A stretch of DNA of 46,118 nt from a virus. Below the pieces are notes generated by a model. That model was not told the DNA's origin. It made no database searches and worked only from the letters and a program-made list of their open reading frames with translations. The position numbers were made by a program, and so were the translations under genes. This document shows positions 1 to 45,205 of the stretch, in pieces (positions within the stretch are counted from its first letter, which is position 1; each line of letters opens with the position of its first letter). The DNA is taken from the IMG/VR virus record IMGVR_UViG_3300035564_000229, positions 1 through 46,118 of that record, one strand, 5' to 3'.

Positions 1-123
1 GAACATCACAATCACAATCCCCGGTGTTCCCGGAGCCAAGGCCAGGCCAAGGGTCCGTATCGTGAAACCGAAAATCGGAACTGCATTCGCAACGATGTAT
101 TCTCCGAAGGAAACGACGAACTA
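1..123. repeat. Terminal direct repeat, left copy
   Basis: Bases 1-123 are identical to 45996-46118. The repeat lies inside one open reading frame (rusA-like), so it looks like the overlap left when a circular or circularly permuted genome is assembled as a linear contig, not a biological terminal repeat. Unit genome length is then 45,995 bp. Confidence 0.95.
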
Positions 124-445
124 CGAAAATCTTGTCAAAACGTCGTTTTGTAAGGCCTATTGCGGAAAACCGACCGAATATCCGGTCAAACTTACCGTGG
201 CAGCGTTTTTCCCGATCCCTGCCAGCGCAACAAAGCGATTCCGCACTGAGTGTCAGGGCGAGGATAAGCCGGTTGTGAAGAAGCCGGATTTCGACAATGT
301 GGCGAAAATTATCTGTGACTCATTGAACCAGATCGCTTTCAGGGACGATTCCCAGGTATACGACGCGCATGTGGTGAAATTCTATTCCGAGATGCCGCGC
401 ACGGTTGTGACCATCGATGACGTCGAAACAGAGTTGCACTTTTAA
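1..445 (+). CDS. rusA: RusA-like Holliday junction resolvase (5' end lies at 45994)
   Basis: RusA-family endodeoxyribonuclease that resolves Holliday junctions and branched replication intermediates. The frame is open to base 2 of the window. Its ATG is at 45994 in the overlapping right end, giving a joined protein of about 148 residues, near the usual 120-150 of the family. The N-terminus has the family PGVPGAKARPR basic motif. The C-terminal half carries KPDFDNVAKIICDSLN followed by FRDDSQV, which supply the conserved catalytic aspartates (KxDxDN and DDSQV). Its ATG overlaps the TGA of the upstream coiled-coil gene (ATGA), so it is translationally coupled to the recombination operon. It is the second last gene before the cassette array. 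The stop is TAA. Confidence 0.93.
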   Translation, partial: NITITIPGVPGAKARPRVRIVKPKIGTAFATMYSPKETTNYENLVKTSFCKAYCGKPTEYPVKLTVAAFFPIPASATKRFRTECQGEDKPVVKKPDFDNVAKIICDSLNQIAFRDDSQVYDAHVVKFYSEMPRTVVTIDDVETELHF

Positions 446-872: not shown

Positions 873-957
873 ATGCCCTCCATCCGCGTCATACTGACAG
901 TTGTGCGAAAGCCTGCCGATTCTTGGAATTTGTAGGCCGCCGCAAGAGGAAGACAAA

Positions 958-1179
958 ATGAAAAATCCATGTTGCAGTTGTGAATATCGCGGCGATCTTT
1001 TCAAACTTGGCGATGGTGGTATCCCGCATTGCCATTGCCACCACCCGAGCGTGCCGGAAAAGGACTTCGGATGGGGTTCACTGCGGGAAGGGTTCTGGAC
1101 ATGCAAGAATTTCAAGCGGCGGCTAAAAGCTGTGGAAAATCGGCAGGCCATCGCACAACAGGCGCAGCTTGCAATTTGA
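958..1179 (+). CDS. Cassette 1: small Cys/His-rich protein, probable zinc binding
   Basis: 73 residues from ATG 958, preceded by an AAGAGGAAG ribosome site. The frame is open back to 901, but that would put the start in the cassette core. The N-terminus has PCCSCEY and then PHCHCHH around residues 23-30, a dense Cys/His set typical of small zinc-binding proteins. The last third is basic. The final seven residues or so are encoded by the left arm of the attC-like site, and the TGA stop lies inside the stem-loop. No specific family was recognised. The first cassette is closest to any upstream promoter, so it should be the best expressed by read-through from the recombination operon. Confidence 0.7.
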   Translation: MKNPCCSCEYRGDLFKLGDGGIPHCHCHHPSVPEKDFGWGSLREGFWTCKNFKRRLKAVENRQAIAQQAQLAI

Positions 1180-1214
1180 AGCAAACAGCAAGCGTGCGCC
1201 GAACCGTTAGGTGC
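1151..1214 (+). repeat. attC-like site 1
   Basis: R'' TCGCACAAC (1151-1159) is the exact reverse complement of the cassette's own start GTTGTGCGA (900-908). Arms GGCGCAGCTTGC (1161-1172) and GCAAGC-G-TGCGCC (1188-1200) pair fully except for one extra G at 1194. The next core GTTAGGTGC begins at 1206. Confidence 0.85.
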
Positions 1215-1217
1215 AAT

Positions 1218-1850
1218 ATGGCAAATTCTGAAATTATAGGCGCGGGGCAAGACACGGCGCATCGTGCGCCGAAGAAAATACTGGACGCGTGTTGTGGTGG
1301 CCGTTGGATGTGGTTCGACAAGCGCAACAAGAACACGCTCTATGTTGATTGCCGTGTTGCTGAAAAAGGGCATGATAAATACAGACCGAATCATTGCGTA
1401 TTGCCGGATGTTGTTATGGATTTTAGAGAACTGCATTTCCCAGATGAAACATTTGCGCTTGTCGTTTTTGACCCGCCACACATGGCAACCCTTGGCGACA
1501 CGAGTAAGTTCCGGCGCTATTACGGCAGACTCGACCGTGTTACTTGGCGGGATGATTTGAAGCGTGGCTTTTCTGAATGTTACCGTGTTTTGAAAAAAGA
1601 TGGGGTTCTCATTTTTAAATGGAATGAAACAGAAATAAAATTGAAGGAGCTTTTTGGTCTATTTCCAATAATGCCGCTGTTCGGGCACCCAACAAACTCA
1701 AAGAATACTACGCATTGGGTGTGCTTTATGAAGCTTGAAGAATCGCCCGTCCTGGGCGAGGAAAGCCCAGCGCAGGACACTATGGAAGGTTTACAAACAG
1801 CATATAACAGGCCAAGTATGCCAGCTTTGCAGGTGGCTTTGGAATTGTGA
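1218..1850 (+). CDS. Cassette 2: SAM-dependent methyltransferase (DPPH type)
   Basis: 210 residues from ATG 1218, which sits inside the cassette leader; the frame is open upstream to 1029, but that part runs backwards through attC 1. It is a class I Rossmann methyltransferase with motif I LDACCGG (residues 22-28), an acidic VDCR strand end near 43-46, and motif IV FDPPH (84-88), followed by FKWNE (133-137) and HWVCFMK (166-172). This set matches a phage-associated family of small class I methyltransferases; the substrate (DNA base or other) is not established. The native domain ends near residue 172. The remaining ~38 residues come from a GC-rich palindromic stretch (1743-1779) and from the attC arm, so the tail is probably not functional. 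No strong ribosome site is seen, so leaderless-like or coupled initiation is possible. Confidence 0.82.
   Translation: MANSEIIGAGQDTAHRAPKKILDACCGGRWMWFDKRNKNTLYVDCRVAEKGHDKYRPNHCVLPDVVMDFRELHFPDETFALVVFDPPHMATLGDTSKFRRYYGRLDRVTWRDDLKRGFSECYRVLKKDGVLIFKWNETEIKLKELFGLFPIMPLFGHPTNSKNTTHWVCFMKLEESPVLGEESPAQDTMEGLQTAYNRPSMPALQVALEL
1743..1779 (+). repeat. GC-rich palindromic element, copy A
   Basis: TCGCCCGTCCTGGGCGAGGA (1743-1762) followed by GCGCAGGACA. The inverted repeat CGCCC/GGGCG and an outer GTCCT/AGGAC pair allow a hairpin. The same 20-mer, and the same downstream 10-mer, recur on the - strand at 38004-38038. Confidence 0.7.
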
Positions 1851-1892
1851 TTATAGGCAAAGCCAGCATACATTGGCCGAACCGTTGTGGGA
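1800..1892 (+). repeat. attC-like site 2
   Basis: R'' GCATATAAC (1800-1808) pairs 7/9 with the cassette start GTTAGGTGC. Arms GGCCAAGTATGC (1810-1821) and GCATAC-A-TTGGCC (1866-1878) pair with one extra A at 1872. The next core GTTGTGGGA begins at 1884. The methyltransferase stop is inside the loop. Confidence 0.82.
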
Positions 1893-1924
1893 AATAAACC
1901 GGCGACCATATAGGGAGGCGCGCA

Positions 1925-2110
1925 ATGGAACCAATCACTATCGAAATTAACATGGATAAAAAGTGCCCTCGGTGCGGTAAGAAAGGTACGTGTCAAAATG
2001 GCTTGTGCATGGATTGTGCGGTGTCTAATTATCTCAAGTCGTTGAAGAGATTGCGCGCTAACAAGGGGAGCGCCGGTTTACATCCCACAACAAAGCAAGT
2101 GACGCCATGA
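1925..2110 (+). CDS. Cassette 3: small zinc-ribbon protein
   Basis: 61 residues from ATG 1925 with a good GGAGG ribosome site seven to eleven bases upstream; an internal ATG at residue 10 is a weaker alternative. Residues 14-31 contain CPRCGKKGTC followed by GLCMDC, a four-to-six cysteine zinc-ribbon knuckle, then a basic helix (YLKSLKRLRANKG). The C-terminal ten or so residues (TTKQVTP) are encoded within the attC-like site, and the TGA lies in the arm. Small zinc ribbons of this kind are common in phages as nucleic-acid-binding or transcription-modulating proteins, but no specific function can be assigned. Confidence 0.68.
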   Translation: MEPITIEINMDKKCPRCGKKGTCQNGLCMDCAVSNYLKSLKRLRANKGSAGLHPTTKQVTP

Positions 2111-2143
2111 AACACAGCACCCGTTGCGCATAGCGTTGTACAA
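2083..2143 (+). repeat. attC-like site 3
   Basis: R'' TCCCACAAC (2083-2091) is the exact reverse complement of the cassette start GTTGTGGGA (1884-1892). The internal stem is poorer than in the other sites (GCAAGTG against CACCCGTTGC with an internal bulge). The next core GTTGTACAA begins at 2135. Confidence 0.72.
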
Positions 2144-2191
2144 AATTTGGCGGTCTCTTGAATTGTAGGCCGCCGAGAAAAGGAGCATTCG

Positions 2192-2587
2192 ATGATAAAA
2201 GAGATTATTACTCAGTGGGACGCGAACAAGGGCAAGCTGGAAGAACGGTTTCGGTCGGCTCACCCCGAGAGCTACACCGCGATAGTCAAAGCCATATTTG
2301 AACTCGTTATTTCTGATTATAACATCTCGAACATGACCGTAATCAACAACGGACATTATCAAGGTACGCAGATTTTTCTTATTCCCGAGGAAACGTATCA
2401 GCCGTCCGTTGACGATTACTTGGTAACACATACTTATTATGGGTCATGTTCGGGATGTGATACACTTGAAGGTATTCGTTCTTACGATGACGAAAAGCCG
2501 ACCGAAACACAGGTGAAGGATTATATGATGCTTGCCCTTCATCTTGTCCAGCGGCTTAAAAAACTGTCGGCGGCTGAAGACGATTGA
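2192..2587 (+). CDS. Cassette 4: phage protein of unknown function
   Basis: 131 residues from ATG 2192, preceded by AAAAGGAG. The sequence contains HYQGTQIFLI and YYGSCSGCDTLEGI (roughly residues 55-92), then SYDDEKPTETQVKDYMMLALHLVQRLKKL. I recall this combination from conserved small proteins of unknown function in several unrelated phages; this is from memory and was not checked. The central SCSGCD motif could bind metal. The gene ends in TGA at 2587, ahead of its attC, so unlike most neighbours its product carries no attC-encoded tail. Confidence 0.75.
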   Translation: MIKEIITQWDANKGKLEERFRSAHPESYTAIVKAIFELVISDYNISNMTVINNGHYQGTQIFLIPEETYQPSVDDYLVTHTYYGSCSGCDTLEGIRSYDDEKPTETQVKDYMMLALHLVQRLKKLSAAEDD

Positions 2588-2601
2588 AAGCCCGCCAAAC
2601 T

Positions 2602-2677
2602 TCGTACAACAGGCCAATGGTGGCGCAAAGCCTACATGCTGAGTACAGCACGTCACCATTGCTCGGACGTTGCTTGC
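2602..2677 (+). repeat. attC-like site 4
   Basis: R'' TCGTACAAC (2602-2610) matches 8/9 the reverse complement of the cassette start GTTGTACAA (2135-2143). Arms CAATGGTG (2615-2622) and CACCATTG (2654-2661) pair perfectly. The next core GTTGCTTGC begins at 2669. Confidence 0.82.
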
Positions 2678-2728
2678 AATAAACTGGCCCCTTTAATTTG
2701 AAGGCGCGCCGAGAAAGGCAAAAACGAA

Positions 2729-3481
2729 ATGAAAAAAGAAGATATTCTCAGCCAGTGCATCGTTGAGGGAAACGTGGTTAAGTTGCCGCCACAGCAGCTG
2801 GAACGTAACCTATATCTCGAAGTGGCGAAAGCTTTGCAGCTTATCGGCGGGAAATGGAAGGGCGGCAAGGTGGCTGGATTCGTTTTTCAGAGTGATCCAA
2901 CCGAACTTCTTGCACAAATCGTCACGGGCCAGCGCCGCAACCTCAAAAAAGAATACCAGTTTTTCGCAACGCCCGCCGCGCTCGCCGACAAGTTGGTCGA
3001 GATGGCGGAAATTCAGCCGGGCAACTCCGTGCTCGAACCGAGCGCGGGCCAGGGTGCTATCGTGCAGGCAATTCAACGTCGCCATCCCGGCGGAACCGTG
3101 GATTGTTTTGAACTTATGGATATCAACCGTAGCTTTTTGTTTAAAATACCAGAGGTCAATTTTATCGGACCTGATTTTTTGGAAGCCGAACCGCTGTCGG
3201 AATATGATCGCATTGTCGCAAATCCACCATTCGCGAAAAATCAGGACAGCGATCATATTCGGCACATGTTTGACTGTCTCAGTCCGGGCGGTGTTTTGGT
3301 GTCCATCAGCTCGAAGCATTGGACACTGTCCGGCAACAAAAAAGAAAAAGCGTTTGCAGAATGGCTGGGTTCACTCAGCGCTGAAATTGTAGAAATCGAT
3401 TCGGGTGAGTTTCAGGAAAGCGGCACTATGGTGGGCGGCTACATCCTGAAAATAAAGAAGAATCGGCGCGCTGGAAACTAA
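2729..3481 (+). CDS. Cassette 5: N6-adenine-type DNA methyltransferase (NPPF)
   Basis: 250 residues from ATG 2729, with a GAAAGG leader 10-15 bases upstream. A ~70-residue N-terminal region precedes a class I methyltransferase core: FFATP (78-82), motif I LEPSAGQG (102-109), motif II acidic FELMD (127-131) and motif IV NPPF (165-168). The order motif I before NPPF, and the NPP(F/Y) signature, are those of gamma-type adenine-N6 methylases. There is no obvious separate target-recognition domain, as is usual in short phage-borne enzymes. The likely role is protection of phage DNA or alteration of host methylation. The gene ends in TAA 18 bases before its attC. It could instead methylate RNA; DNA is favoured by motif type and context. 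Confidence 0.85.
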   Translation: MKKEDILSQCIVEGNVVKLPPQQLERNLYLEVAKALQLIGGKWKGGKVAGFVFQSDPTELLAQIVTGQRRNLKKEYQFFATPAALADKLVEMAEIQPGNSVLEPSAGQGAIVQAIQRRHPGGTVDCFELMDINRSFLFKIPEVNFIGPDFLEAEPLSEYDRIVANPPFAKNQDSDHIRHMFDCLSPGGVLVSISSKHWTLSGNKKEKAFAEWLGSLSAEIVEIDSGEFQESGTMVGGYILKIKKNRRAGN

Positions 3482-3498
3482 GGAAGGGCCAGTTTACA

Positions 3499-3640
3499 GC
3501 AAGCAACAGCCGCAGCCCAAAATTACGACTCTTTCCGATACTTGCGGTGTGTACGGTTCCAGTTTATGCAATGGCGTTTGTCGGGGTTGTTCACTTTATA
3601 CGCCGTCGTAACTTCTGGCGTGCGGCAACCCGTTGGGCGA
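3499..3640 (+). repeat. attC-like site 5 (long form)
   Basis: R'' GCAAGCAAC (3499-3507) is the exact reverse complement of the cassette start GTTGCTTGC (2669-2677). Arms GCCGCAGCC (3509-3517) and GGC-G-TGCGGC (3617-3626) pair with one extra G at 3620. The ~100-base loop makes this one of the two longest sites. The next core GTTGGGCGA begins at 3632. Confidence 0.85.
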
Positions 3641-3643
3641 AAT

Positions 3644-4402
3644 ATGGCAAATCTTGAATTTATAGTCGCGCCCGAAAACCAAATCATAAAAGGCAACAGC
3701 CTTGAAATTATGAAGCGGTTGCCGGACAAAAGCGTAAATCTAATTCTAACCGATCCTCCGTATGGTCTTAATTATGGGTATAATTCGTATGTTGATACAA
3801 AAGAAAATCTTTGTGATCTTATTGCAGGATTTATGCCGGAAGCGTTGCGAATATCAAATCTTGTTGCGGTAACATGTGGAATAACGCCAATGCATCTTTA
3901 CCCGCAACCAGATTGGATTATGGCTTGTGTTTGGGATACAACCGGAAGCCATGGCATGTTTGGATTTACTCAATGGTTCCCTATTTTAATGTATGGAAAA
4001 GACATTGCTGGATTTGGTTCGGTAAATGGATTGTTAAAATCAGATGTTATCAAGGTTACAGGTGGCGCGGGAGTCGGTTTTATGCGAGACGCTATTGTCA
4101 AAAACCATCCTTGCCCTAAACCGTTAAACTTGATTAAGTATCTAATTCGTAGGTTGTCTTATGTAAACGATTTGGTTTTTGATCCTTTTTCTGGTAGTGG
4201 CACCACAGCAATTGCTTGTTTAGAAACAGAACGAAGATTTTTTGGAATCGAAATTGACGAGGAATATTACGCACTATCGTTAAGGCGAATTGAAGAGGCA
4301 ACCGCTCAACAAAACTTATTCGGAACGGGCGCGAAGAATAATGCGGTAATTTGCCATACATCGCCCAACAGCGCAAGTATGCAAGTTGCGCTTGACATTT
4401 AG
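3644..4402 (+). CDS. Cassette 6: beta-class N6-adenine DNA methyltransferase
   Basis: 252 residues from ATG 3644, which lies in the cassette leader; upstream codons back to 3542 run through attC 5 and are discarded. Motif IV TDPPYG (residues 36-41) comes before the SAM-binding motif DPFSGSGTT (about 180-188), which is followed by FFGIEIDEEYYALSLRRIEE. That is the order of beta-class (type II M.RsrI/CcrM-like) adenine-N6 enzymes. The final ~34 residues lie outside the enzyme core, and the end of this tail is encoded by the attC site (…NSASMQVALDI); it resembles the tail of cassette 7 (…NSASMLVA). The stop is TAG in the stem-loop. It probably acts as a solitary modification enzyme, since no restriction endonuclease is adjacent. 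Confidence 0.9.
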   Translation: MANLEFIVAPENQIIKGNSLEIMKRLPDKSVNLILTDPPYGLNYGYNSYVDTKENLCDLIAGFMPEALRISNLVAVTCGITPMHLYPQPDWIMACVWDTTGSHGMFGFTQWFPILMYGKDIAGFGSVNGLLKSDVIKVTGGAGVGFMRDAIVKNHPCPKPLNLIKYLIRRLSYVNDLVFDPFSGSGTTAIACLETERRFFGIEIDEEYYALSLRRIEEATAQQNLFGTGAKNNAVICHTSPNSASMQVALDI

Positions 4403-4454
4403 GACTATGTTTTTAATAGGCGCAACCAGCATACATTGCGCGAACGTTGCATGC
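4361..4454 (+). repeat. attC-like site 6
   Basis: R'' TCGCCCAAC (4361-4369) is the exact reverse complement of the cassette start GTTGGGCGA (3632-3640). Arms GCGCAAGTATGC (4371-4382) and GCATAC-A-TTGCGC (4429-4441) pair with one extra A at 4435. The next core GTTGCATGC begins at 4446. Confidence 0.87.
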
Positions 4455-4504
4455 AAATTTGGCAGCTCTGAAATTAGAGCGCGCCGCAGGAAAGGAAAAA
4501 GACA

Positions 4505-5104
4505 GTGCAAGAATTTATTGAGTTTCCAAAGATTTATCGAGTGTCCCGCCAGTGTATCATCACGGAAAAAATTGACGGAACGAACGGCCAGATTTGCATA
4601 GGCGAAGACGGAGAATTTTTAGTCGGTAGTCGTACTCGCTGGCTTAACGGGCAAACGGGCGATAATCACGGATTTTTCTTGTGGGCACTTGAACACAAAG
4701 AAGACCTTCTCAAGCTCGGAGCCGGTCGGCATTTTGGCGAATGGTGGGGAAGCGGTATTCAACGCGGTTACGGTTTAAAAGAAAAGCGGTTTTCCTTGTT
4801 CAACACTTCTCGATGGTTTGACGATGCCATTCGGCCCGCGTGCTGCCATGTTGTGCCAGTGCTTTACGAGGGCATATTTGATACAGCGCGAGTTGAAGAA
4901 TGTGTTTCGAGGTTGCGGGCAGAAGGAAGTGTTGCCGCACCAGGCTTTATGAAAGCCGAAGGTGTGGTCTGTTTTCATACTCAGGGTAATTTTGGTTTGA
5001 AAAAGACGCTGGAAAAAGACGAAGAACACAAAGGCATGCGGCGCGAGAATAATGCGGAAGCTGCCAAATCAACATGCAACAGCGCAAGCATGCTAGTTGC
5101 GTAA
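4505..5104 (+). CDS. Cassette 7: RNA ligase-family nucleotidyltransferase
   Basis: 199 residues from GTG 4505, with AGGAAAGG about 10 bases upstream. It has the covalent nucleotidyltransferase motifs of the Rnl2-like RNA ligase family: motif I EKIDGTNG (residues 21-28, nucleophile Lys22), a GEWWG motif III-like strand (78-82), motif IV EGVV (152-155) and motif V GLKKTLEKD (around 164-172). The family seals RNA or nicked nucleic-acid ends using ATP; here it might repair tRNA cut by host defences, which is inference. The protein is short, lacking a C-terminal accessory domain. Residues from about 190 are encoded by the attC site, and the TAA is inside it. Confidence 0.82.
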   Translation: MQEFIEFPKIYRVSRQCIITEKIDGTNGQICIGEDGEFLVGSRTRWLNGQTGDNHGFFLWALEHKEDLLKLGAGRHFGEWWGSGIQRGYGLKEKRFSLFNTSRWFDDAIRPACCHVVPVLYEGIFDTARVEECVSRLRAEGSVAAPGFMKAEGVVCFHTQGNFGLKKTLEKDEEHKGMRRENNAEAAKSTCNSASMLVA

Positions 5105-5155
5105 GTAAATATGCAGTCATAGCAACCAGCATGCGGTTGCGCACACGTTTGCAAT
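5072..5155 (+). repeat. attC-like site 7
   Basis: R'' ACATGCAAC (5072-5080) matches 8/9 the reverse complement of the cassette start GTTGCATGC (4446-4454). Arms GCGCAAGCATGC (5082-5093) and GCATGC-GG-TTGCGC (5129-5142) pair with two extra G at 5135-5136. The next core GTTTGCAAT begins at 5147. Confidence 0.85.
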
Positions 5156-5184
5156 GGGCTTCTTAAATTTATTGGAGGTGCGGC

Positions 5185-5415
5185 ATGAGTTGCGGTAATT
5201 GTTCTCACAAACTTGTTTGCAAATATAAACCGGTATCGCCTTGTCCGATATACCCGGATGATGCCGCACTGGAAGAATGTGGTACTCAGCCCACAGACAA
5301 CCAACAGCCGCAGCACAAAATATCTACGCGTCCGTGCAAGCAAGGGTATGCCAAGTGCGTGTTTGATATTTGCTTCGAGCTGTGTGATACCTGTACCGTA
5401 AAAAAACCCGCGTAG
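5185..5415 (+). CDS. Cassette 8: small Cys-rich protein
   Basis: 76 residues from ATG 5185 with a strong GGAGG site. CGNCSHKLVC near the N-terminus (Cys 3, 6 and 12) and further cysteines to residue 33 suggest metal binding. From about residue 38 (…TDNQQPQHKIST) the frame runs through the long attC-like site, including CVFDICFELCDTC, so nearly half of the protein is specified by recombination-site DNA. The TAG is 22 bases before the next core. No family was recognised. An ancestral shorter protein extended by cassette rearrangement is possible. Confidence 0.62.
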   Translation: MSCGNCSHKLVCKYKPVSPCPIYPDDAALEECGTQPTDNQQPQHKISTRPCKQGYAKCVFDICFELCDTCTVKKPA

Positions 5416-5446
5416 CTACTTCGTGCGTGCGGCGCACGTTGTTTTC
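5297..5446 (+). repeat. attC-like site 8 (long form)
   Basis: The R'' 9-mer at 5297-5305 ends in CAAC but does not match the cassette's own start (GTTTGCAAT), unlike the other sites. Arms GCCGCAGCAC (5307-5316) and GTGC-G-TGCGGC (5423-5433) pair with one extra G at 5427. The next core GTTGTTTTC begins at 5438. Confidence 0.7.
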
Positions 5447-5498
5447 AATTTGGGGCGAGAGCGTTATTATAGGCCCGCCCACTTAACAAGAAAGTTTT

Positions 5499-5969
5499 AT
5501 GGTTAAAAATTACACTTCTACGGTCGCAGCTTCCCGGTCTGTCCAGCATATCGAGGACAGGTTAGTGTCACATGGTGCTATGAATATACTAAAACTGTAC
5601 GAAAACAAGTCTCTTACGGGGGTTGCGTTTATTCTCGACGCGAACGGCAAGCAGCTTCCTTTCAAACTTCCTGCCCGTGTCAGCAATGTTGAAAAGCAAC
5701 TGCGTTCTGAAATTAAGCGTCCGCGCCCTGGCACACTTCAACACATCAAGGAGCAGGCTGAGCGGACTGCATGGAAACTGCTTGCCGATTGGGTTGACAT
5801 ACAGCTTAGCCTTGTCGAGCTACAACAGGTACAGTTTTTAGAGGTGTTCCTGCCGTATGTTTACGATCATGCTAAGCAGCAGACGTTTTTTGAAAAGCTG
5901 GAGCAGACCGGGTTTAAACAATTATCATTTCAGGGCGGTCAGAATAATATGGAGTCGCCCAAAACATAA
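5499..5969 (+). CDS. Cassette 9: conserved phage protein of unknown function
   Basis: 156 residues from ATG 5499, the first in-frame ATG after the leader; AAGAAAG lies upstream. The N-terminal half has NYTSTVAASRSVQHIEDRL and a predicted beta-rich region ending FKLPARV. The middle has an alpha-helical EQAERTAWKLLADWVDIQLSL (about 90-110), then VFLPYVYD. This arrangement (short N-terminal helix, FxLPA, then AWR/KxLxDWVxxQ) recurs in many unrelated phages and mobile islands as a protein without assigned function; that comparison is from memory. The gene ends in TAA at the first base of attC 9. Confidence 0.78.
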   Translation: MVKNYTSTVAASRSVQHIEDRLVSHGAMNILKLYENKSLTGVAFILDANGKQLPFKLPARVSNVEKQLRSEIKRPRPGTLQHIKEQAERTAWKLLADWVDIQLSLVELQQVQFLEVFLPYVYDHAKQQTFFEKLEQTGFKQLSFQGGQNNMESPKT

Positions 5970-6023
5970 AAACAACAACCGTATGGCAACATTTAAACGT
6001 CGCCATACTATACCGTTAGAGGC
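5968..6023 (+). repeat. attC-like site 9 (short form)
   Basis: R'' AAAAACAAC (5968-5976) matches 8/9 the reverse complement of the cassette start GTTGTTTTC (5438-5446). Arms GTATGGC (5981-5987) and GCCATAC (6002-6008) pair perfectly around a 14-base loop. The next core GTTAGAGGC begins at 6015. Confidence 0.82.
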
Positions 6024-6071
6024 CATACGCCGGAGTCTTATTTGTAATTACGCCGCCAAGAAAGGAAAGTT

Positions 6072-6455
6072 ATGTTAATATATTTAGCTGCACGGTATTC
6101 AAGATTCAGTGAAATGCAGAAGGTTCGGGCCGACCTTGAAGCTTTGGGTCATTCAGTCACGTCCAGGTGGATCAATGGCGGCCATCAGATAAGCGACGAT
6201 GGATTGTCAGTAGAAGGGAAAGCGGCGTTTGCGACAGAGGACTTAAGTGATCTGGTCGCTTCCGATACGGTTATTTCTTTTACTGAAGCGCCGCGCTCTA
6301 CAAGTAGCAGGGGTGGCCGCCATGTCGAATTTGGCATTGCCCTTTCATCTGATAGGCGAGTCATCGTTGTCGGCCCCCGCGAGAACGTTTTTCATTGCCT
6401 TCCGAATGTTGAATGGTATGCAGATTATTCGTCGTTCTTAACTAAGTTCAAATAG
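6072..6455 (+). CDS. Cassette 10: nucleoside 2-deoxyribosyltransferase-like protein
   Basis: 127 residues from ATG 6072, with AAGAAAGGAAAG upstream. It begins IYLAARYSRFSEMQKVRADLEALGHSV, the Rossmann-like nucleotide-binding start of this family. It continues through EDLSDLVASDTVISFTE to a GGRHVEFGIAL motif (about residues 82-92), whose Glu is in the position of the family's catalytic glutamate, then VVGPRENVFHCLP. Enzymes of this family exchange or hydrolyse the base of deoxynucleosides. In phages they are thought to salvage nucleotides or alter nucleotide pools; that role here is inference. The TAG stop is 32 bases before the attC. Confidence 0.8.
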   Translation: MLIYLAARYSRFSEMQKVRADLEALGHSVTSRWINGGHQISDDGLSVEGKAAFATEDLSDLVASDTVISFTEAPRSTSSRGGRHVEFGIALSSDRRVIVVGPRENVFHCLPNVEWYADYSSFLTKFK

Positions 6456-6487
6456 GCGGCGTTGGACACTATGGAATCCGGCGTACA

Positions 6488-6577
6488 GCCTCTAACAGCC
6501 GCAGCACAAAACGCGGCAATCAAGGACGTTTGAGTGTATAAGGCCGCGCATCGTGCTTGCGGCGAACCGTTGTTTGC
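6488..6577 (+). repeat. attC-like site 10
   Basis: R'' GCCTCTAAC (6488-6496) is the exact reverse complement of the cassette start GTTAGAGGC (6015-6023). Arms GCCGCAGCAC (6498-6507) and GTGC-T-TGCGGC (6553-6563) pair with one extra T at 6557. The next core GTTGTTTGC begins at 6569. GGACACTATGGAA at 6464-6476, just upstream, is shared with cassette 2 (1775-1787). Confidence 0.87.
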
Positions 6578-6596
6578 AATTGCGCCGGAGAGCGTT

Positions 6597-7415
6597 ATGA
6601 TAGTTGCGCCCGAAATTCAGCCTTATCTCAACACCGTAACTCACGGCGATTGCTTAGAGGTTATGGCGCGGCTGCCGGGAGAATGCGTCGACATGATTTT
6701 CACCGATCCACCATACGGCCACGGAAACCACGACGGCGACTGGAACGAAAGGTTGAACAACCATCGCGGCATTGAGAATAAACCAATCGGCAACGATGAT
6801 TGCGAGAGTATGCGCCGTGTGGTTTCTGGCATGCTTACACATGCTGCGCGGCTCCTAAAAAGCGACTGCTGCTGCTGCTGCTGCTGCGGCGGCGGCGGCC
6901 CAAAGCCCACCTTTGCGTGGGTTGCCCAGCGCATGGATGAAGGCGGCCTGTCGTTCTTTCACAGCGTTATCTGGGATAAGTGCAATCCTGGCCTTGGCTG
7001 GCGGTATAGGCGGCAGCACGAAATGATCATGGTCGCTCACCGAGCGGGGGGCCGCCTGCGCTGGGCAGATGAAAAGACAACGCAAAGGAATATCATTTCT
7101 ATGTCTCCGCCGCGAGACCGCGAACATCCAAACGAGAAGCCTCTTGCGCTCGTTCGGCGCTTCATCGAGCTGCACACATTACCCGGCGATCTGGTGCTCG
7201 ATCCGTTCGCGGGCAGCAGCACAACAGCGGTAGCGTGCATTGAGCTTGGTCGCAATTTTATATGCATCGAGCAAGCCGCGCAATACGTGGCCGTGAGTAA
7301 GCGACGCATTCAAGAGGCAGCCGCAAAGACGAGTCTTTTCGAGCCGGGCGCAATTTTTAAGGAGTCCGGCGCAACAGACAAACAACAGCCGCAGCTTGAA
7401 ATGCGGCTTGAGTAA
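6597..7415 (+). CDS. Cassette 11: beta-class N6-adenine DNA methyltransferase with poly-Cys run
   Basis: 272 residues from ATG 6597, with GGAG six bases upstream; upstream codons back to 6534 belong to attC 10. Motif IV TDPPYG (36-41) precedes LDPFAGSSTT (201-210), the order of beta-class adenine-N6 methylases. A run of seven TGC codons (Cys91-97, bases 6867-6887) and four GGC codons (6888-6899) lies at the start of a predicted strand after the ARLLKSD helix; related methylases can have a Cys/Gly-rich turn here. Triplet repeats change length without changing frame. The C-terminal …TDKQQPQLEMRLE comes from the attC arm. It is probably a solitary modification enzyme. Confidence 0.9.
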   Translation: MIVAPEIQPYLNTVTHGDCLEVMARLPGECVDMIFTDPPYGHGNHDGDWNERLNNHRGIENKPIGNDDCESMRRVVSGMLTHAARLLKSDCCCCCCCGGGGPKPTFAWVAQRMDEGGLSFFHSVIWDKCNPGLGWRYRRQHEMIMVAHRAGGRLRWADEKTTQRNIISMSPPRDREHPNEKPLALVRRFIELHTLPGDLVLDPFAGSSTTAVACIELGRNFICIEQAAQYVAVSKRRIQEAAAKTSLFEPGAIFKESGATDKQQPQLEMRLE

Positions 7416-7461
7416 TATGCAGTAGTACCGCACTTCAAGCGGTGCGGCGAACGTTGGCTGC
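7378..7461 (+). repeat. attC-like site 11
   Basis: R'' ACAAACAAC (7378-7386) matches 8/9 the reverse complement of the cassette start GTTGTTTGC (6569-6577). Arms GCCGCAGCTTGAA (7388-7400) and TTCAAGC-GG-TGCGGC (7434-7448) pair with two extra G at 7441-7442. The next core GTTGGCTGC begins at 7453. Confidence 0.87.
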
Positions 7462-7490
7462 AATGGTTGCCTTTGGAGAATTATAGCGCA

Positions 7491-8192
7491 ATGAGAAAAC
7501 CAAGACTACTCGATCTATTCTGTGGGGCTGGTGGCTGTTCAACCGGCTACGAGCGGGCGGGATTTGACGTGCATGGCGTCGACATCAAGCAGCAGCCTCA
7601 CTATCGCGGAGAGTTTACGTGCGGCGATGCACTGGAGTTTCTGCAAAGGTTTGGCCTCGAATACGACGCCATACACGCAAGCCCTCCGTGCCAGGCCCAC
7701 TGTAGCCTCAACCAGATGTGGAATTCCAAGCAGCATCTCTCGCTCATAGAGCCTACGCGCCGGCTATTGGTAGAAACCGGGAAGCCGTGGGTGATAGAAA
7801 ACGTGGTAGGTGCGCCATTGCGCAACCCAATTACTATGTGCGGCACCATGTTCGGGTTGAAGACTCGCGGCGCGGAACTTCGCAGGCATCGTCTCTTCGA
7901 AACGAGTTTTCCCATTCTCCTACGTCCTGCTTGTCAACATGGCCAAGAGCCGCGAGTAATAGGTGTGTATGGTGGTCATGGCCGAGATCGTAGGCGCACA
8001 ACAAACACCCAAGACTTCCCGGTTCAGGCACGGCGCGAGGCTATGGGTATCGACTGGATGGCTGGCACAGAGCTGTCGCAAGCGATCCCGCCCGCCTATA
8101 CAGAGTGGATTGGGAAGCATCTCATTGCGCAAGTCAAGGAAGCGGCAACCACAGACAGCCAACAGGCCAAGGTTGCCAGCCTTCGCGGGTAA
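7491..8192 (+). CDS. Cassette 12: DNA (cytosine-5) methyltransferase
   Basis: 233 residues from ATG 7491, with GGAG 12 bases upstream; an in-frame TTG at 7467 is a weaker alternative. C5-MTase signatures appear in order: motif I DLFCGAGG (8-15), a motif II acidic end VDIK (30-33), catalytic PCQ (66-68, nucleophile Cys67), motif VI ENV (103-105) and RRHRLFE (131-137). It is shorter than bacterial Dcm-type enzymes (over 300 residues) and has only a small variable region, typical of phage enzymes. The closing …TTDSQQAKVASLRG is encoded by the attC arm. As the last cassette it is the oldest insertion if cassettes enter at the left end. Confidence 0.9.
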   Translation: MRKPRLLDLFCGAGGCSTGYERAGFDVHGVDIKQQPHYRGEFTCGDALEFLQRFGLEYDAIHASPPCQAHCSLNQMWNSKQHLSLIEPTRRLLVETGKPWVIENVVGAPLRNPITMCGTMFGLKTRGAELRRHRLFETSFPILLRPACQHGQEPRVIGVYGGHGRDRRRTTNTQDFPVQARREAMGIDWMAGTELSQAIPPAYTEWIGKHLIAQVKEAATTDSQQAKVASLRG

Positions 8193-8238
8193 GTATGCGG
8201 TCTAAACGGCCAGCAACCGTTGGCCAAACGTAAGGCGA
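8155..8238 (+). repeat. attC-like site 12, right end of the array
   Basis: R'' ACAGCCAAC (8155-8163) matches 8/9 the reverse complement of the cassette start GTTGGCTGC (7453-7461). Arms GGCCAAGGTTGC (8165-8176) and GCAACC-G-TTGGCC (8213-8225) pair with one extra G at 8219. The right core is GTAAGGCGA (8230-8238), a GTT variant that marks the junction with the phage backbone. Confidence 0.82.
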
Positions 8239-8273
8239 CATGTAAGGTTAAAATAAGGGTTTTAAAGTGAAAA

Positions 8274-8293
8274 GGGCGGCCGCAGCGCCGCCC
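8274..8293 (-). terminator. Rho-independent terminator of the late operon
   Basis: On the - strand, GGGCGGC (8293-8287) and GCCGCCC (8280-8274) form a perfect 7-bp stem with a 6-base loop, followed by TTTTCACTTT. It lies 25 bases past the holin stop codon, between the convergent late operon and cassette array. Confidence 0.85.
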
Positions 8294-8317
8294 CATGCCA
8301 GCACCTCAGAAATTGTA

Positions 8318-8779
8318 TTATCCCACGCCTTTGATTTTTTCCATAGTCCTCATCCCGGCGATTCCCAGGAGTCCGAGCAGTAGCGGCATGAGTGTTGACA
8401 TGTCGAGGTGCGGCGGGACCGGAATTACCCAAATCGCAGATCCCCAGGCAAGGAACGGCTGCAGGAGATACTCATACGCCAGCCCCGCGGCGCATACCCA
8501 TCCTACAAACGGACGCCAGCCAGCGCGAAAAAGGGATCCGCTCTGCGCGTCGAGCTTGTTGAGGTCGATCTGCCCGGTGACCATCTGCGTCTGCAAATCG
8601 GACGCTGCTTTCTCCAGCGCATTGGCCTGGTCAATCATTTTAATACGCATTTCCTCGGTAAGAGGCGCGGTCCCGGTGAAAGCGGTTCTCAAATCCCTGG
8701 CCAGTCCTCCCGCTGCCCCCAGGAGACCGGCGACACCCTGCTGCACAACATTACCGACGACATCGAGTATGCTTGCCAT
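8318..8779 (-). CDS. Holin-like membrane protein
   Basis: 153 residues from ATG 8779, with AGGAGG eight to thirteen bases upstream; the frame is open further upstream only as the antisense of the M15 gene. An N-terminal amphipathic alanine/glycine-rich segment and a charged helix precede hydrophobic segments WRPFVGWVCAAGLAYEYLLQ, FLAWGSAIWVIPV and LMPLLLGLLGIAGMRTMEK. The WRPF-membrane-GxxxxRTxEK layout is that of the three-transmembrane holin family found in phages and gene-transfer agents. It would permeabilise the inner membrane so that the adjacent peptidase reaches the wall. It is the last gene of the late operon. Confidence 0.85.
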   Translation of the reverse strand: MASILDVVGNVVQQGVAGLLGAAGGLARDLRTAFTGTAPLTEEMRIKMIDQANALEKAASDLQTQMVTGQIDLNKLDAQSGSLFRAGWRPFVGWVCAAGLAYEYLLQPFLAWGSAIWVIPVPPHLDMSTLMPLLLGLLGIAGMRTMEKIKGVG

Positions 8780-28717: not shown

Positions 28718-29713
28718 TTATGCCAACGTGGTATATCCCGGAATCCAGAACGCCCCATCCTGAGTAACCATTTTGAAAACCGCATCACAGTTTGAAACTG
28801 TGATATGGCCTGATTCGTAAATGTATGCTTTTGTCGTCTCGGTGTGGGCTGTTCCCCTGTTTGTAATCGGACCGCAACGGAAAAACGCATCCACTCCATA
28901 GGACGTGTTTACGTCCGTGAAATAGATGAACGAACTCGCCGCACCTGCCGCTGTCGACAGGAAATACGAATCGCACCGCAGGGAAGCGATCGTACCGCCG
29001 GCGGGGGCCGTATTCGTCAGGCCGATACCGATCGTGGCCCGCACGCCCGAGGCCTCACCCGTTACCGTACCGACGCTTGCCGCGTCTTCCGAGCCGAGTT
29101 GCGCCGTGATATGAGCACCGTGCATGTTTGCAATCGACACATTGGTCAGATTGTAAGCACGAAGGGCATCACCGGTCGCCGTTCCCGCTCCAGTAAACAA
29201 TGTTCGGACACTCAGCCCGCGGAATATTCCGCTTGTGGCGCTGGACTGGCCCCAGATACGGGCCAGTTCCCCGGCCGCTGTTAAAGTGGTTGCGCTGAGA
29301 GAGTCAGCCCCTTCAATAGCTTTAACCCACCCGTAAGCACCGGTCCATTTTTTTGTCCACTTGTCGTATTGTGATACGACTCCCGCCGAAGAAAAGGTGA
29401 ACATTTCGCATATTGAACCTATAGGAAGGACCGCAAGCGTCGCATCGCCAACGGGAGTCGTACGGGTATAAACGTCAAGAGTTTCTTTCGCGCCGTCTGT
29501 GGCATCGAAAGGAAACTGCTTGATCCGAATGACGTTCTTGATGTTTCCCGTCGAAAGTTTTCCGGCTTCGATAAACGGGCTTGGCTCATTCTCCCTTACT
29601 GCCGCAGGCGGGCAAAGGATGTCGAGTGCTATCGAACCTTTCTGGTTGTTCAGCACTTTTATTGCGCAGACAATCGCAAATAGGATTGTTGCAAAAATAT
29701 TCTTCAAAAACAT
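28718..29713 (-). CDS. Putative head decoration or virion structural protein
   Basis: 331 residues from ATG 29713, with AAGGAGG upstream; the open frame extends to 29878, but those codons lack a ribosome site and overlap the capsid gene's end. Residues 2-19 (FLKNIFATILFAIVCAIK) are hydrophobic, like a signal or anchor, which is odd for a virion protein. The remainder is Ala/Thr/Gly-rich and beta-prone (…GLSVRTLFTGAGTATGDALRAYNLTNVSIANMHGAHITAQLGSEDAASVG…). The gene follows the major capsid gene directly. A decoration protein or head fibre is the most likely role; a secreted protein is the alternative. Confidence 0.65.
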   Translation of the reverse strand: MFLKNIFATILFAIVCAIKVLNNQKGSIALDILCPPAAVRENEPSPFIEAGKLSTGNIKNVIRIKQFPFDATDGAKETLDVYTRTTPVGDATLAVLPIGSICEMFTFSSAGVVSQYDKWTKKWTGAYGWVKAIEGADSLSATTLTAAGELARIWGQSSATSGIFRGLSVRTLFTGAGTATGDALRAYNLTNVSIANMHGAHITAQLGSEDAASVGTVTGEASGVRATIGIGLTNTAPAGGTIASLRCDSYFLSTAAGAASSFIYFTDVNTSYGVDAFFRCGPITNRGTAHTETTKAYIYESGHITVSNCDAVFKMVTQDGAFWIPGYTTLA

Positions 29714-36980: not shown

Positions 36981-37389
36981 TTGTCAAGCCCTGAAAAAAG
37001 TGTTTCTGCTATTGGGGAAAGGGAGGGACCGATAGATGAAAATCGAGGGGTGGTCGCAAGGGGAGTACCCCCCTCCCCCCGTCCGGTAAATCGAGCATAA
37101 TGCGCTCTTGCCTGATTATTATAGATCAAAATCCTCCCCTTGCCTGCATCATCGAAATCAACTATGAACAAAATCAATGCGTTACAAATGAAGTTTACAT
37201 AATAGTTATTATGAGCCATCCTATCTGTCAATCTTTTTTGAATGAAATAGCACGTTTTTTGCGCTGTAATGCGTGGAATTATATGGGTTTGTGGGTTTAT
37301 TTGGTTTGGGGGATTATGGATGTGACCGGTCATTCCGTCCTCCCTTTTTGCCCGATTTGTTACAAAAAGTATCAACGCATCAATGGAAA

Positions 37390-37706: not shown

Positions 37707-38018
37707 TTATTGTACCGGTGTCTGGACGGTCGTCACGTGCGCCGGCGCCGTCGGGCCGTCGGGCCGCGGAGAATTGATAAGCTCGGGCACGGTGACGAAC
37801 CGGTATCCACGTGCTTTTAACTGGGAAAGGATGACCGGCAGCGCCCGTACCGTTTCCCTGCGATCGGCGTCCGGCTTCAGTTCGAGGCCGTCGTGGAGCA
37901 GGATGATCGCACCGGCGCCGCATTTCGACAGAACAACCAGGACATGGAGCATACCAATGTCCACAACCTCAGCACGAGTGACCGTCGTAGGGGCACTCCT
38001 GAATGTCCTGCGCGCCCC
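37707..38018 (-). pseudogene. Polysaccharide deacetylase C-terminal fragment (bacterial remnant)
   Basis: The frame encodes …TTVTRAEVVDIGMLHVLVVLSKCGAGAIILLHDGLELKPDADRRETVRALPVILSQLKARGYRFVTVPELI. The GAIILLHDG and RETVRALPxILxxLKARGYRFVTVPEL blocks are those at the C-terminus of NodB-type polysaccharide deacetylases. The catalytic N-terminal two thirds (the DHxxH part) are absent; upstream the similarity stops near a GC-rich palindromic element at 38004-38038. Base composition is richer in G+C than the neighbouring phage genes. A truncated bacterial gene captured by the phage is the most likely explanation; a chimeric assembly is the alternative. Confidence 0.65.
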
Positions 38019-38038
38019 TCCTCGCCCAGGACGGGCGA
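38004..38038 (-). repeat. GC-rich palindromic element, copy B
   Basis: The reverse strand of 38019-38038 is identical over 20 bases to 1743-1762 and is followed, as there, by GCGCAGGACA (38013-38004). It marks the truncation point of the deacetylase fragment. Confidence 0.7.
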
Positions 38039-38071
38039 AATCTGGCTCTGAAAAAATAGTTGAAATAACTG

Positions 38072-38106
38072 TTGACACCGTAACCGGGTTATGGTATATT
38101 ATATAC
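38072..38106 (+). promoter_or_regulatory. Sigma70-like promoter with palindromic -10 region
   Basis: TTGACA (38072-38077), a 17-base spacer and TATATT (38095-38100). The -10 lies in a perfect inverted repeat GTATAT-T-ATATAC (38094-38106), a possible operator. It drives the two-gene module that ends at the terminator at 38612. Confidence 0.82.
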
Positions 38107-38156
38107 AGAGACAGGGAGAGCCCCTGAATCGGAAAAAACCAAAACCCGGAGGATTT

Positions 38157-38453
38157 ATGAAATACACGATTCAAAACAGAAATTTCAGCACATGCAAACC
38201 AGAGGCCTGCCAGGATAACGGATACGAGGGATACGACAACGGCTATAAAAACGCATTGCCAGTTGGCGAATATACCGCGTTTGCCGTATCCTATACTCCT
38301 GACGGTGGCAAATCGTTTACCGAATCGTGGTATCTGACCGATAGCGATGACGTTGAAACCAGCAATACGACAGAGGGCGATCAGTACCGCAGAATTTGCA
38401 GGGTGTGGAGAGTAAAATTTGACGGCGAACGCATCCGTAGAATCGAGGCATAA
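38157..38453 (+). CDS. Moron-like gene 1, unknown function
   Basis: 98 residues from ATG 38157, with GGAGG five bases upstream; the frame is open to 38091, but that lies in the promoter. The protein is mixed alpha/beta with YTIQNRNFSTCKPEACQDNGYEGYDNGYKN, then SYTPDGGKSFTESWYLTDSDDVE and a basic C-terminus RVWRVKFDGERIRRIEA. Two cysteines and many aromatic residues are present, but no known domain was recognised. With its own promoter and terminator and opposite orientation to neighbours, it behaves like a moron (an independently expressed accessory gene). Confidence 0.7.
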   Translation: MKYTIQNRNFSTCKPEACQDNGYEGYDNGYKNALPVGEYTAFAVSYTPDGGKSFTESWYLTDSDDVETSNTTEGDQYRRICRVWRVKFDGERIRRIEA

Positions 38454-38455
38454 TA

Positions 38456-38605
38456 ATGAAAACACTGATTCAAAAATACCTATCTGAAATCGGCAAGCGC
38501 GGCGGGGAGAAATCCCGACGCACCCTGACGACAGAACAGTCTCGCGCAATGACGGCAGCGAGAGAGGCAAGGAGAAAAAAGAAAAAACCTGATTCATATG
38601 TCTGA
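38456..38605 (+). CDS. Moron-like gene 2, small basic protein
   Basis: 49 residues from ATG 38456, with GAGG nine to twelve bases upstream and only two bases from the previous stop. The sequence KYLSEIGKRGGEKSRRTLTTEQSRAMTAAREARRKKKK matches the common GGKxxxxxLTxEQRxxxAxxAxxARxxK pattern of tiny basic bacterial and phage proteins, thought to bind nucleic acid; the function is unproved. The terminator follows within ten bases. Confidence 0.7.
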   Translation: MKTLIQKYLSEIGKRGGEKSRRTLTTEQSRAMTAAREARRKKKKPDSYV

Positions 38606-38611
38606 TTCTCC

Positions 38612-38640
38612 GGCCCGCACGACGCGGGCCTTTTTGTTTT
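38612..38640 (+). terminator. Rho-independent terminator of the moron module
   Basis: GGCCCGC (38612-38618), loop ACGAC, GCGGGCC (38624-38630), then TTTTTGTTTT (38631-38640). Confidence 0.9.
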
Positions 38641-39646
38641 GGGGCGCGACCGACGCCAGATACTGGTCCGGCGATTCACGTCCCTGCGGATGTGTCTGGA
38701 CAATGGAGACGGCATGCAAGGTGTCGTTATGGTCGATCAGGGAGTCTTTCCTGGAAAAAACATCGGCAGTCACATCGACGGAAGATCCCCAATACCTCCG
38801 GTATTCAAACGGCGTCCTGAAATAAAACCAGGAGATAGGCGAGAACTTCAATGAAACGGAGATGTCCGCATCGCCGCCCGCATTATAGATCGTTTCAATG
38901 CGGCGGACCCGCGCCACCTGTGAGAACGTCGCGGTTTTTCCCGAATCGTCAAGATACGCCGTGTAGAGAATGCTGTTTTCATCGAACGTGGTGTTGAAAA
39001 AAACCGGCCGCACGCTCAGTCCGAGCGAAAGGAGATCGGAAACGTTCGTTGAATAATACAGATGAAAAGACCGGAGCTGGAACGCCGACGTGTTTTCTTC
39101 CCGTGCGCCGTTGTCGATCCAGAAACTGGCGCTGTCCTTCACCTCTTTTGCATCGAACGGAGGATTACCTGCATCACGGCAGGTCAGGGAAGACCCTCAG
39201 CCGCCGCCGTACGGATAATAGTAATGAAAGTCATACATGTGGAGAGAATCGGTGATCCTGCGCGCCAGTCTGTCCATTTCGTAGCTCATGAAATTTGACG
39301 GATAGAGCGCGTTTGCCTCAAGCGATGATCCGCCGGCAAGCCCGATGTCCCCGCCCCCGACGGATTTTTTTACGAGCCAAAGCCGGTTCGACGCATAGGC
39401 GAAAAGTTTTCCTGCCGGAAGTGTGTAATTTTTTCCGATCAGGAAGTTTGCCGCGCATTCAGGATCGTACGGGCTGATCATGGAACAGGTAAGGCAGCCG
39501 GAAGACAGCGCCGGTGCCGCCTGTACGGGCACTGTAATTGCGGACAGCGGTGCAGTTTCCTGTTTCCGGGACGCGGAATCCGGTGAAGCTGCGGCCTTTG
39601 CAGGCGCCGGTTTCGCGGAATCGGGCGCGGTCTCTTCGGGCGGCAT
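38641..39646 (-). pseudogene. Outer-membrane-like protein fragment interrupted by UGA (bacterial remnant)
   Basis: One frame runs from 39646 down to 38594, with a single TGA at 39197-39199. The upstream part (149 residues) is Ala/Pro-rich, then SMISPYDPECAANFLIGKNYTLPAGKLFAYASNRLWLVKKS… ending HMYDFHYYYPYGGG. Downstream the frame continues GSSLTCRDAGNPPFDAKEVKDSASFWIDNGAREENTSAFQLRSFHLYYSTNVSDLLSLGLSVRPVFF…, typical of a beta-barrel or periplasmic protein of a Gram-negative bacterium. Neither a signal peptide nor a natural C-terminus is present; the last ~10 codons run into the moron terminator. It is G+C-rich. YGGG-x-GSS is natural if x is Trp, so the TGA may be a TGG mutation. Likely captured host DNA. 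Confidence 0.6.
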
Positions 39647-43385: not shown

Positions 43386-44486
43386 ATGAATACCGACAAA
43401 AAGGAACTTCAAGTTTCCGACCAAGAAAAGCAGCACAGGGCAATGATGCAGATTGTCAGGAACACGATTTTCAAAAATTCAACGGACGAGGAACTCGCCC
43501 TATTTTTCCACATTTGCAAAAGCAATAACTGTTCCCCGCTTGATCGGCTCCTTCATCCTTCCGTTTACAAGGACTCGGACGGCAACAGAATCCTTGTCGT
43601 GGTCACTTCGATTGATCTCATGCGTTCTCGTTCGGTTGAAACCGGCCTTGATAATGGCATGGATGAACCGGAATTTTCCGAAAGTATCTTTGATCTTAAA
43701 ACCGAAAAGGAAACAATTAAGGTTCCCGAGTGGTGCAAGGTCCGGGTCTATAAGAAAAATGTCGAACGGCCTTACGTGGGCGTTGCCCGGTGGGTTGAAT
43801 TCTATCCCGGCGAAAAGCGCGGGCACATGTGGCGCAAGATGCCTACTATCATGCTTGCCAAGTGCGCGGAAGCGCAGGCTCGCCGTCTCGCATTCCCGAG
43901 GGAATTAAACAAACTCTACGAGGAAGCGGAGATTATCCAGGCGACGGCCATTCTTGCCGGAGTCACGGACAGCACGCAGCCGCCGGCATCCGGCAAACCC
44001 GAAACAACAGCGCCGTCCGAGGTCCAGAAGCCCGACGAGCCTACACGGAAGGCGAACAAGTGGATTTCCGAGGGACAAGAAAAGCGCCTGTACGCAATTC
44101 TGAAAGCAAATAACGTTGATGTGGCAGACTTCCGGGCATGGCTCATTATGATGCTGAAAAAAGAGCACATGTATATGATTTCCTGGGCGGGCAAGGAGTA
44201 CGACAAAATCATCGAGCACATTGAAAAAAACCCGAAGGATTTTACCGGATATGCGGATAAACTTGCAGCGCAGGAAACGTCAAAGGCCGCAGAGTCAACC
44301 GGTAAGAGCGAATTTCAGCTTTCCATCGAGGGATACGCTTCCTTACTCGGCAAAACACTTCACGACATGGAAGAAATTATTAATGCCGAATTCGGATACA
44401 TTGGCCTTGCCGAAGTTCCAGAGGACCAAAAAGACGCGGTCCTCGATCATTTCAAAACCATGTTACAGGCAAAGGACAAGAAATAA
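43386..44486 (+). CDS. bet: Single-strand annealing protein, Bet/RecT-type
   Basis: 366 residues from ATG 43386, with GGAAAGGAAA upstream. The Redbeta/Bet core is clear: EELALFFHICKSNNCSPLDRLLHPSVYKDSDGNRILVVVTSIDLMRSR, CKVRVYKKNVERPYVGVARWVEFYPGEKRGHMWRKMPTIMLAKCAEAQARRLAFPRELNKLYEEAE. A Pro/Glu/Thr linker (about 195-225) leads to a C-terminal helical extension of ~140 residues not present in lambda Bet, which may contact the ssDNA-binding protein or nuclease. It anneals complementary strands in recombination-dependent replication, together with the adjacent exonuclease. Confidence 0.9.
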   Translation: MNTDKKELQVSDQEKQHRAMMQIVRNTIFKNSTDEELALFFHICKSNNCSPLDRLLHPSVYKDSDGNRILVVVTSIDLMRSRSVETGLDNGMDEPEFSESIFDLKTEKETIKVPEWCKVRVYKKNVERPYVGVARWVEFYPGEKRGHMWRKMPTIMLAKCAEAQARRLAFPRELNKLYEEAEIIQATAILAGVTDSTQPPASGKPETTAPSEVQKPDEPTRKANKWISEGQEKRLYAILKANNVDVADFRAWLIMMLKKEHMYMISWAGKEYDKIIEHIEKNPKDFTGYADKLAAQETSKAAESTGKSEFQLSIEGYASLLGKTLHDMEEIINAEFGYIGLAEVPEDQKDAVLDHFKTMLQAKDKK

Positions 44487-44491
44487 TTACG

Positions 44492-44559: not shown

Positions 44560-44576
44560 AATACGAGAAAAAAAAT

Positions 44577-45203: not shown

Positions 45204-45205
45204 AA

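Follow-up and report, generated by a model that had tools for sequence, protein, structure and literature searches.

An integron-like cassette array with three-box complementary ends in a phage genome

How does a phage genome come to hold a row of integron-type gene cassettes, and what moves such cassettes if the phage carries no integrase? These questions are raised by the IMG/VR virus record IMGVR_UViG_3300035564_000229 (46,118 bases; the whole stretch analysed is called the window hereafter), in which positions 900-8228 are filled by twelve units with one gene each, all on the plus strand. A preliminary description of this DNA had read the units as integron cassettes and suggested that the virus could pick up genes from a host integron. 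The region is laid out as an integron-type cassette array, in the manner of attC-like site clusters that have no integrase. Each cassette, moreover, has ends that are built to match each other in three boxes; this structure was not seen in the preliminary description and is the part that appears to be new.

Thirteen core positions delimit the twelve units. GTT cores stand at the first base of each cassette (Table 1), and at about 8228 the terminal core is formed by G|TAAGGC; another GTT, at 8219, belongs to the L′ arm of the final site and is not a core. The R-box consensus GTTRRRY fitted fully only at cores 1206 and 3632, and the window cores otherwise keep only GTTR. Unit ends were chosen by their outermost 8 nt and were then scored for pairing further inward. 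Over 32 nt, the mean score between a unit's own two ends was 14.7, compared with 6.0 for ends of other units and 6.1 for those of the neighbour, and none of 100,000 permutations reached 14.7. A blind scan of the window for paired ends picked out ten of the twelve units, together with a single chance pair, while block-shuffled copies gave 0-1. The earlier claim of twelve single-gene units in one orientation with GTT-type cores is thus borne out. Hairpins with attC anatomy were found between units in at least 10 of the 12 places. On the bottom strand of the 12 inter-unit sites, the R side is followed by an unpaired spacer, an L box of 6 bp, an extrahelical base (mostly a single one, 6 bp into the L stem) and a variable terminal stem, with z = -2.0 to -4.1 at nine sites. 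The stem-loop ends that had been described are therefore present at those places. Sites 5 and 8 are long with weak z, and site 3 is taken up below. Weak R-box pairing within the array was also considered as a special feature and was dropped, as bacterial arrays were only slightly better.

The first 48 nt of each cassette were set against its last 48 nt in reverse complement. Own-end complementarity extended over about 48 nt in three boxes: A (nt 1-9), which is the usual R box, B (about nt 11-22) and C (about nt 32-48). The separators between the boxes are conserved unpaired stretches. A mismatch of 2-4 nt (AA or CAA against TG or TCTG) lies between box A and the roughly 10 nt of box B, and a loop with AATTTATAG on its 5′ side and GGAG on its 3′ side lies between B and C, where pairing resumes for 8-10 nt. 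The box sequences vary between cassettes yet match within each cassette. In the ten window cassettes with clear ends, the own and other scores were 8.4 and 4.4 for A, 9.7 and 3.8 for B, and 8.6 and 5.4 for C. None of 20,000 permutations reached the own-end score for any of the boxes, and in these cassettes no own-end pairing signal was found in the B-C loop or beyond C. Box A had helped to pick the cassette borders in the window and in the bacterial arrays, and thus only B and C are independent tests there. The sequence AATTTATAG in the second loop was considered as a promoter -10 box and set aside. In units 2 and 6 the sequence falls within the coding region, which makes a structural role likelier.

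The pattern was replicated in 14 cassettes of two other phage contigs, G408 and G407, whose borders were set by a site model alone and not by end pairing. The own and other scores were 6.29 and 4.34 (A), 7.64 and 3.61 (B), and 6.93 and 4.31 (C), all significant. Similar composition was considered as a cause of the pairing and was tested by permutation between cassettes, with the result already given for the window and a significant one in G408 and G407. RNAalifold predicted 21 pairs on 14 joined cassette ends, 19 of them with double compensatory changes, so that covariation between own ends, like the cassette structure, is directly observed. By computed folding, the circular junction of intact cassettes reached about -50 kcal/mol, compared with about -25 kcal/mol for a site within the array.

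Own-end pairing was also considered as a generic integron trait, which in the Pseudomonadota controls was true for box A only. Control genomes were nearly all Pseudomonadota, plus one cyanobacterial plasmid. In 175 cassettes from ten Pseudomonadota integrons, pairing stopped after 10-11 nt and none reached an end score of 15. When 125 of these cassettes were scored box by box, only A was paired, with B (3.41 own, 3.38 other) and C (3.99 and 4.12) at the level of chance. The integron on the cyanobacterial plasmid had bacterial-type sites, with box A only and pairing of about 8-11 nt. The array shares with the sedentary chromosomal integrons of Pseudomonadota the unit layout, the GTT/AAC cores, the L hairpin and the own-end complementarity of the R box. 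Unlike the array, these integrons have pairing that ends early, another L-box sequence, an integrase near by and GTTRRRY cores. By the features tested the array is not a standard bacterial one, though it is integron-like in its working.

Two covariance models were used to look for sites elsewhere. A home-made bacterial attC model, built from 36 bacterial attC sites, found many matches in bacterial arrays that had been held out, and it also matched two sites of phage TJE1 and three of the phage contig G001 (IMGVR_UViG_3300012964_000025). A second model, built from nine window sites, matched arrays or single cassettes in the contigs G002, G003, G404/G405 (a singleton), G407 and G408. A search with the exact site pattern in IMG/VR and 84,980 genomes gave chance matches only. 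With the cassette-start pattern 11 of 13 matches were due to chance, and two tail-gene families were repeated.

The contigs matched by the window-site model carry portal, terminase or head genes and, beyond the cassettes, share only remote homology with the window (e.g. about 31% for DnaB). Their arrays carry other cassettes and not the same twelve genes, whose presence throughout would have counted against the preliminary reading. Cassette 11 is also present in G002 and G003 (about 90% nucleotide identity), with homology ending at the cassette limits. Between the window and G003 it is 91% identical from the GTT core to AAC, and the sequence upstream of it is random. A comparison of G002 with G003 gives 98.7% identity for this methyltransferase cassette, against 47.5% before it and 52% after it, values as low as those of unrelated DNA. 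G003 and G407 have cassettes with common ends and a diverged interior.

The Polaribacter phages P12002L and P12002S are about 99.6% identical in the flanks of a variable region and differ by whole cassettes. The left breakpoint of a replaced block lies at a GTT core (L 37,265 / S 36,675), and on the right the two sequences come together again close to the following core (L about 39,240). An insertion of about 1.1 kb in P12002S, consisting of three cassettes, is next to a core (L 39,696-39,700). The breakpoints are thus at GTT cores or within ~20 nt of them. In both phages the cassettes show boxes A and B and the inner loop of the window cassettes, and as these examples were picked for their high scores, only the breakpoints of these phages serve as evidence. 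Sharing that is bounded by the cassettes is directly observed, and these comparisons support the view that cassettes of the window kind move between phages. In P12002L (L234) we also noted two copies of one 68-nt sequence ending in GTTGTT, at 29172-29239 and 37200-37265, each marking the left end of a different cassette cluster. It is a possible attI-like entry site.

The bare idea of a phage attC cluster is not new, because clusters without integron-integrases were published in 2023, among them those of TJE1, P12002L and PH101 (Qi et al. 2023, PMC9892861). That study reported 17 phage clusters, drawn as few sites each, and noted methyltransferase cargo. IntI1 used five of the six phage sites tested, one of them from P12002L (PMC9892861), and a trans-acting integrase is therefore plausible for the wider group. 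The published clusters share with the window attC-like sites, one-gene cassettes, the lack of an integrase and methyltransferase cargo. The window differs from them in having 12 cassettes, sites invisible to the bacterial attC model, and boxes B and C. The sites of TJE1, which match the bacterial model, have no arms. The contig G001 resembles the window in possessing three consecutive modification-type cassettes with 18-bp own-end arms, but its sites match the bacterial model, its arms lack the inner loop and the contig encodes a tyrosine integrase.

On balance we believe the array to represent a phage-adapted class of integron-type cassettes, rich in methyltransferases and moved by a recombinase supplied in trans. 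Under this model a cassette would leave as a circle, and its bottom strand would fold into one long rod, with the L hairpin followed by the stems of boxes A, B and C. The cut at G|TT would be made by a tyrosine recombinase of the integron-integrase type, provided in trans by the host or by another element, and a core in another phage would take up the circle. Boxes B and C, pairable only between the ends of the same cassette, would stabilise the site of the circle far above the array sites, and the computed difference in stability would favour capture over loss. The five methyltransferase-like genes and the RNA ligase may aid the escape of the phage from host restriction and repair.

Several results weigh against this model. 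With filters off, the 36-site bacterial model recognised none of the 12 window sites (best 8.4 bits, E 0.71), an outcome that the preliminary description had named as half of its refutation test, and use by a known integron integrase is therefore not a given. No match to the integron-integrase family was found in the window, and no tyrosine recombinase (PF00589, Phage_integrase) in the window, G002, G003, G404, G405, G407 or G408. The integrase-less character of the cluster, as first described, is thereby confirmed, and the enzyme is a guess. No bacterial integron with the window site type was found in the genomes searched. The window phage had no close relative by RecT, TerL, portal or major head protein, and excision and insertion of cassettes, unseen in this phage itself, are inferred. 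Within the array, site 3 (2084-2142) is degenerate (z = +0.64), unit 2 has mismatched, hybrid ends with a start like that of unit 6, and unit 8 has a damaged end and, as we read the sequence, a start apparently short of 3 nt.

The same results bear on the origin of the cassettes. The array may be an ordinary bacterial cassette cluster that came out of a chromosomal integron in a host of an unsampled phylum, with three-box ends as a trait of that phylum's integrons. We regard this as unlikely, though it deserves to be taken seriously: clusters of bacterial type do exist in phages, as the matches in TJE1 and G001 demonstrate (PMC9892861), and with controls drawn almost entirely from one phylum, the sampling of phyla is the main gap. 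However, the window-site model found no match in 399 Pseudomonadota genomes, 72 of them with an integron integrase, under stricter filters with which weak sites may be missed, and the sites and short pairing of the cyanobacterial plasmid integron were of the bacterial type. The array type also recurs in phage contigs with differing virion genes, and the recognisable cargo is typical of phages. Of the comparisons proposed at the outset, that for the same cassettes found cassette 11 in other phages, and that for the site family gave no match in these bacterial genomes. The idea of cargo exchange is supported as far as cassettes of this kind move between phages, but an origin from an ordinary bacterial integron is not supported, given the failure of the bacterial model.

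Movement by a tyrosine recombinase could itself be questioned. The complementary ends are also present in the transcript, where they might form an RNA panhandle between its 5′ and 3′ ends, protecting it or controlling translation, and exchange would then occur only through homologous recombination by the RecT and exonuclease proteins of the phage, whose genes lie with that of RusA directly upstream of the array. This seems improbable to us, as the pairing begins exactly at the recombination core and prolongs the R stem common to all integron cassettes, and the exchange borders are at cores with no homology outside. In addition, the start codon of units 2 and 6 falls within the paired stretch and that of units 1, 4 and 5 outside it, so the arms do not track the translation signals of the gene. 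Hairpins and folded single strands are, on the other hand, substrates of HUH enzymes, and one cassette of G408 (L258, reverse complement, 8047-8770) encodes such an enzyme, an IS200-like Y1 transposase. Cassettes might accordingly be moved as single-stranded DNA by hairpin recognition and not by a tyrosine recombinase. We give this very little credence, since a Y1 transposase was absent from the other seven phage records tested, with none in the window, and the GTT/AAC cores and the L-box hairpins with an extrahelical base are features of integron sites.

The features of the window are listed in Table 1. The record has a 123-bp direct terminal repeat at its ends and therefore represents a circularised phage genome. 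It encodes a terminase, a portal, a major head protein and a DnaB-like helicase, in addition to the RecT-like, exonuclease and RusA-like proteins of the table, and its proteins are distant from those of named phages. The array is flanked by the rightward recombination operon on one side and by leftward late genes on the other, as had been described.

Table 1. Cassettes and other features of the window (each cassette starts at its GTT core; ORF, open reading frame)
Feature	Position	Strand	Description
Cassette 1	900-1205	+	Small Cys-rich ORF 958-1179; 44-nt end pairing (900-943 with 1116-1159); attC-like site 1152-1213
Cassette 2	1206-1883	+	Methyltransferase-like ORF 1218-1850; hybrid ends, own ends unmatched; attC-like site 1801-1891
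Cassette 3	1884-2134	+	61-aa ORF 1925-2110 with CxxC pairs; all three boxes intact; degenerate inter-unit site 2084-2142
Cassette 4	2135-2668	+	ORF 2192-2587, no Pfam match; attC-like site 2603-2676
Cassette 5	2669-3631	+	Methyltransferase-like ORF 2729-3481; attC-like site 3500-3639
Cassette 6	3632-4445	+	N6_N4 DNA methyltransferase ORF 3644-4402; attC-like site 4362-4453
Cassette 7	4446-5146	+	RNA_ligase-family ORF 4505-5104; attC-like site 5073-5154
Cassette 8	5147-5437	+	Cys-rich ORF 5185-5415; start core apparently minus 3 nt; attC-like site 5298-5445
Cassette 9	5438-6014	+	ORF 5499-5969, no Pfam match; short site 5969-6022
Cassette 10	6015-6568	+	ORF 6072-6455, weak nucleoside 2-deoxyribosyltransferase match; attC-like site 6489-6576
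Cassette 11	6569-7452	+	N6_N4 DNA methyltransferase ORF 6597-7415; attC-like site 7379-7460
Cassette 12	7453-8228	+	C5 cytosine methyltransferase-like ORF 7491-8192; terminal site 8156-8235, right core G|TAAGGC
RusA-like Holliday junction resolvase	2-445	+	Upstream of array
Orphan cassette relic	about 37975-38656	-	Related to G003/G407 cassettes; C, C′ and B′ can still be recognised, but the A boxes are gone
RecT-like annealing protein	43386-44486	+	Recombination operon 43386-45997, upstream of array across circular junction
Two exonuclease-like genes	44577-45203, 45206-45997	+	Recombination operon upstream of array

The cargo comprises methyltransferase-like genes in units 2, 5, 6, 11 and 12, an RNA ligase in unit 7 and, with a weak match, a nucleoside deoxyribosyltransferase in unit 10. 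No protein family was found for units 1, 3, 4, 8 and 9, and the protein of cassette 4 had no match in IMG/VR. The array DNA gave only short methyltransferase matches to known phages, and an Rfam scan of the array gave no match above threshold. The methyltransferase of cassette 11 includes a CTG/GGC codon repeat (window about 6866-6900) that is not equally long in the window, G002 and G003 and could be a switch or tuner of the enzyme. In another phage contig (L042, 5955-6656) a methyltransferase gene lies between the arms of a 25-bp inverted repeat (CATGCTTATCCGGTTTAAACACACA), and no attC-like hairpins accompany it. The orphan relic has 37 nt identical to the start of a G407 cassette, and its 3′ end, AGGGGCGCGCAGGACATTCAGGAGTGCCCC, contains boxes C′ and B′. 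The G003 cassette related to it seems to carry an antisense gene under a promoter of its own, together with a terminator hairpin.

The model of a phage-adapted cassette class may be taken further. Because three-box ends were absent from the bacterial integrons checked, and near-identical cassettes were present in unrelated phages, phages appear to exchange genes by a system of their own. We tentatively suggest, as a possibility that is somewhat more doubtful than the model itself, that several phage lineages share a cassette-exchange system apart from bacterial integrons. It would have its own attC class, three-box folded circles as its mobile form and a recombinase, and its arrays would be libraries of interchangeable anti-restriction and repair genes that are handed on between phages. 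If this is true, single genes, most of them for DNA methyltransferases, would pass between unrelated phages through site-specific exchange of cassettes as well as by homologous mosaicism. The mechanistic claim is that the extra paired boxes would lock the circular cassette in a recombining fold. The arms also provide a sequence test for cassettes that bacterial attC models overlook. Phage arrays are therefore probably undercounted: P12002L, listed with two sites in 2023 (PMC9892861), has at least four arm-bearing cassettes by the end-arm test.

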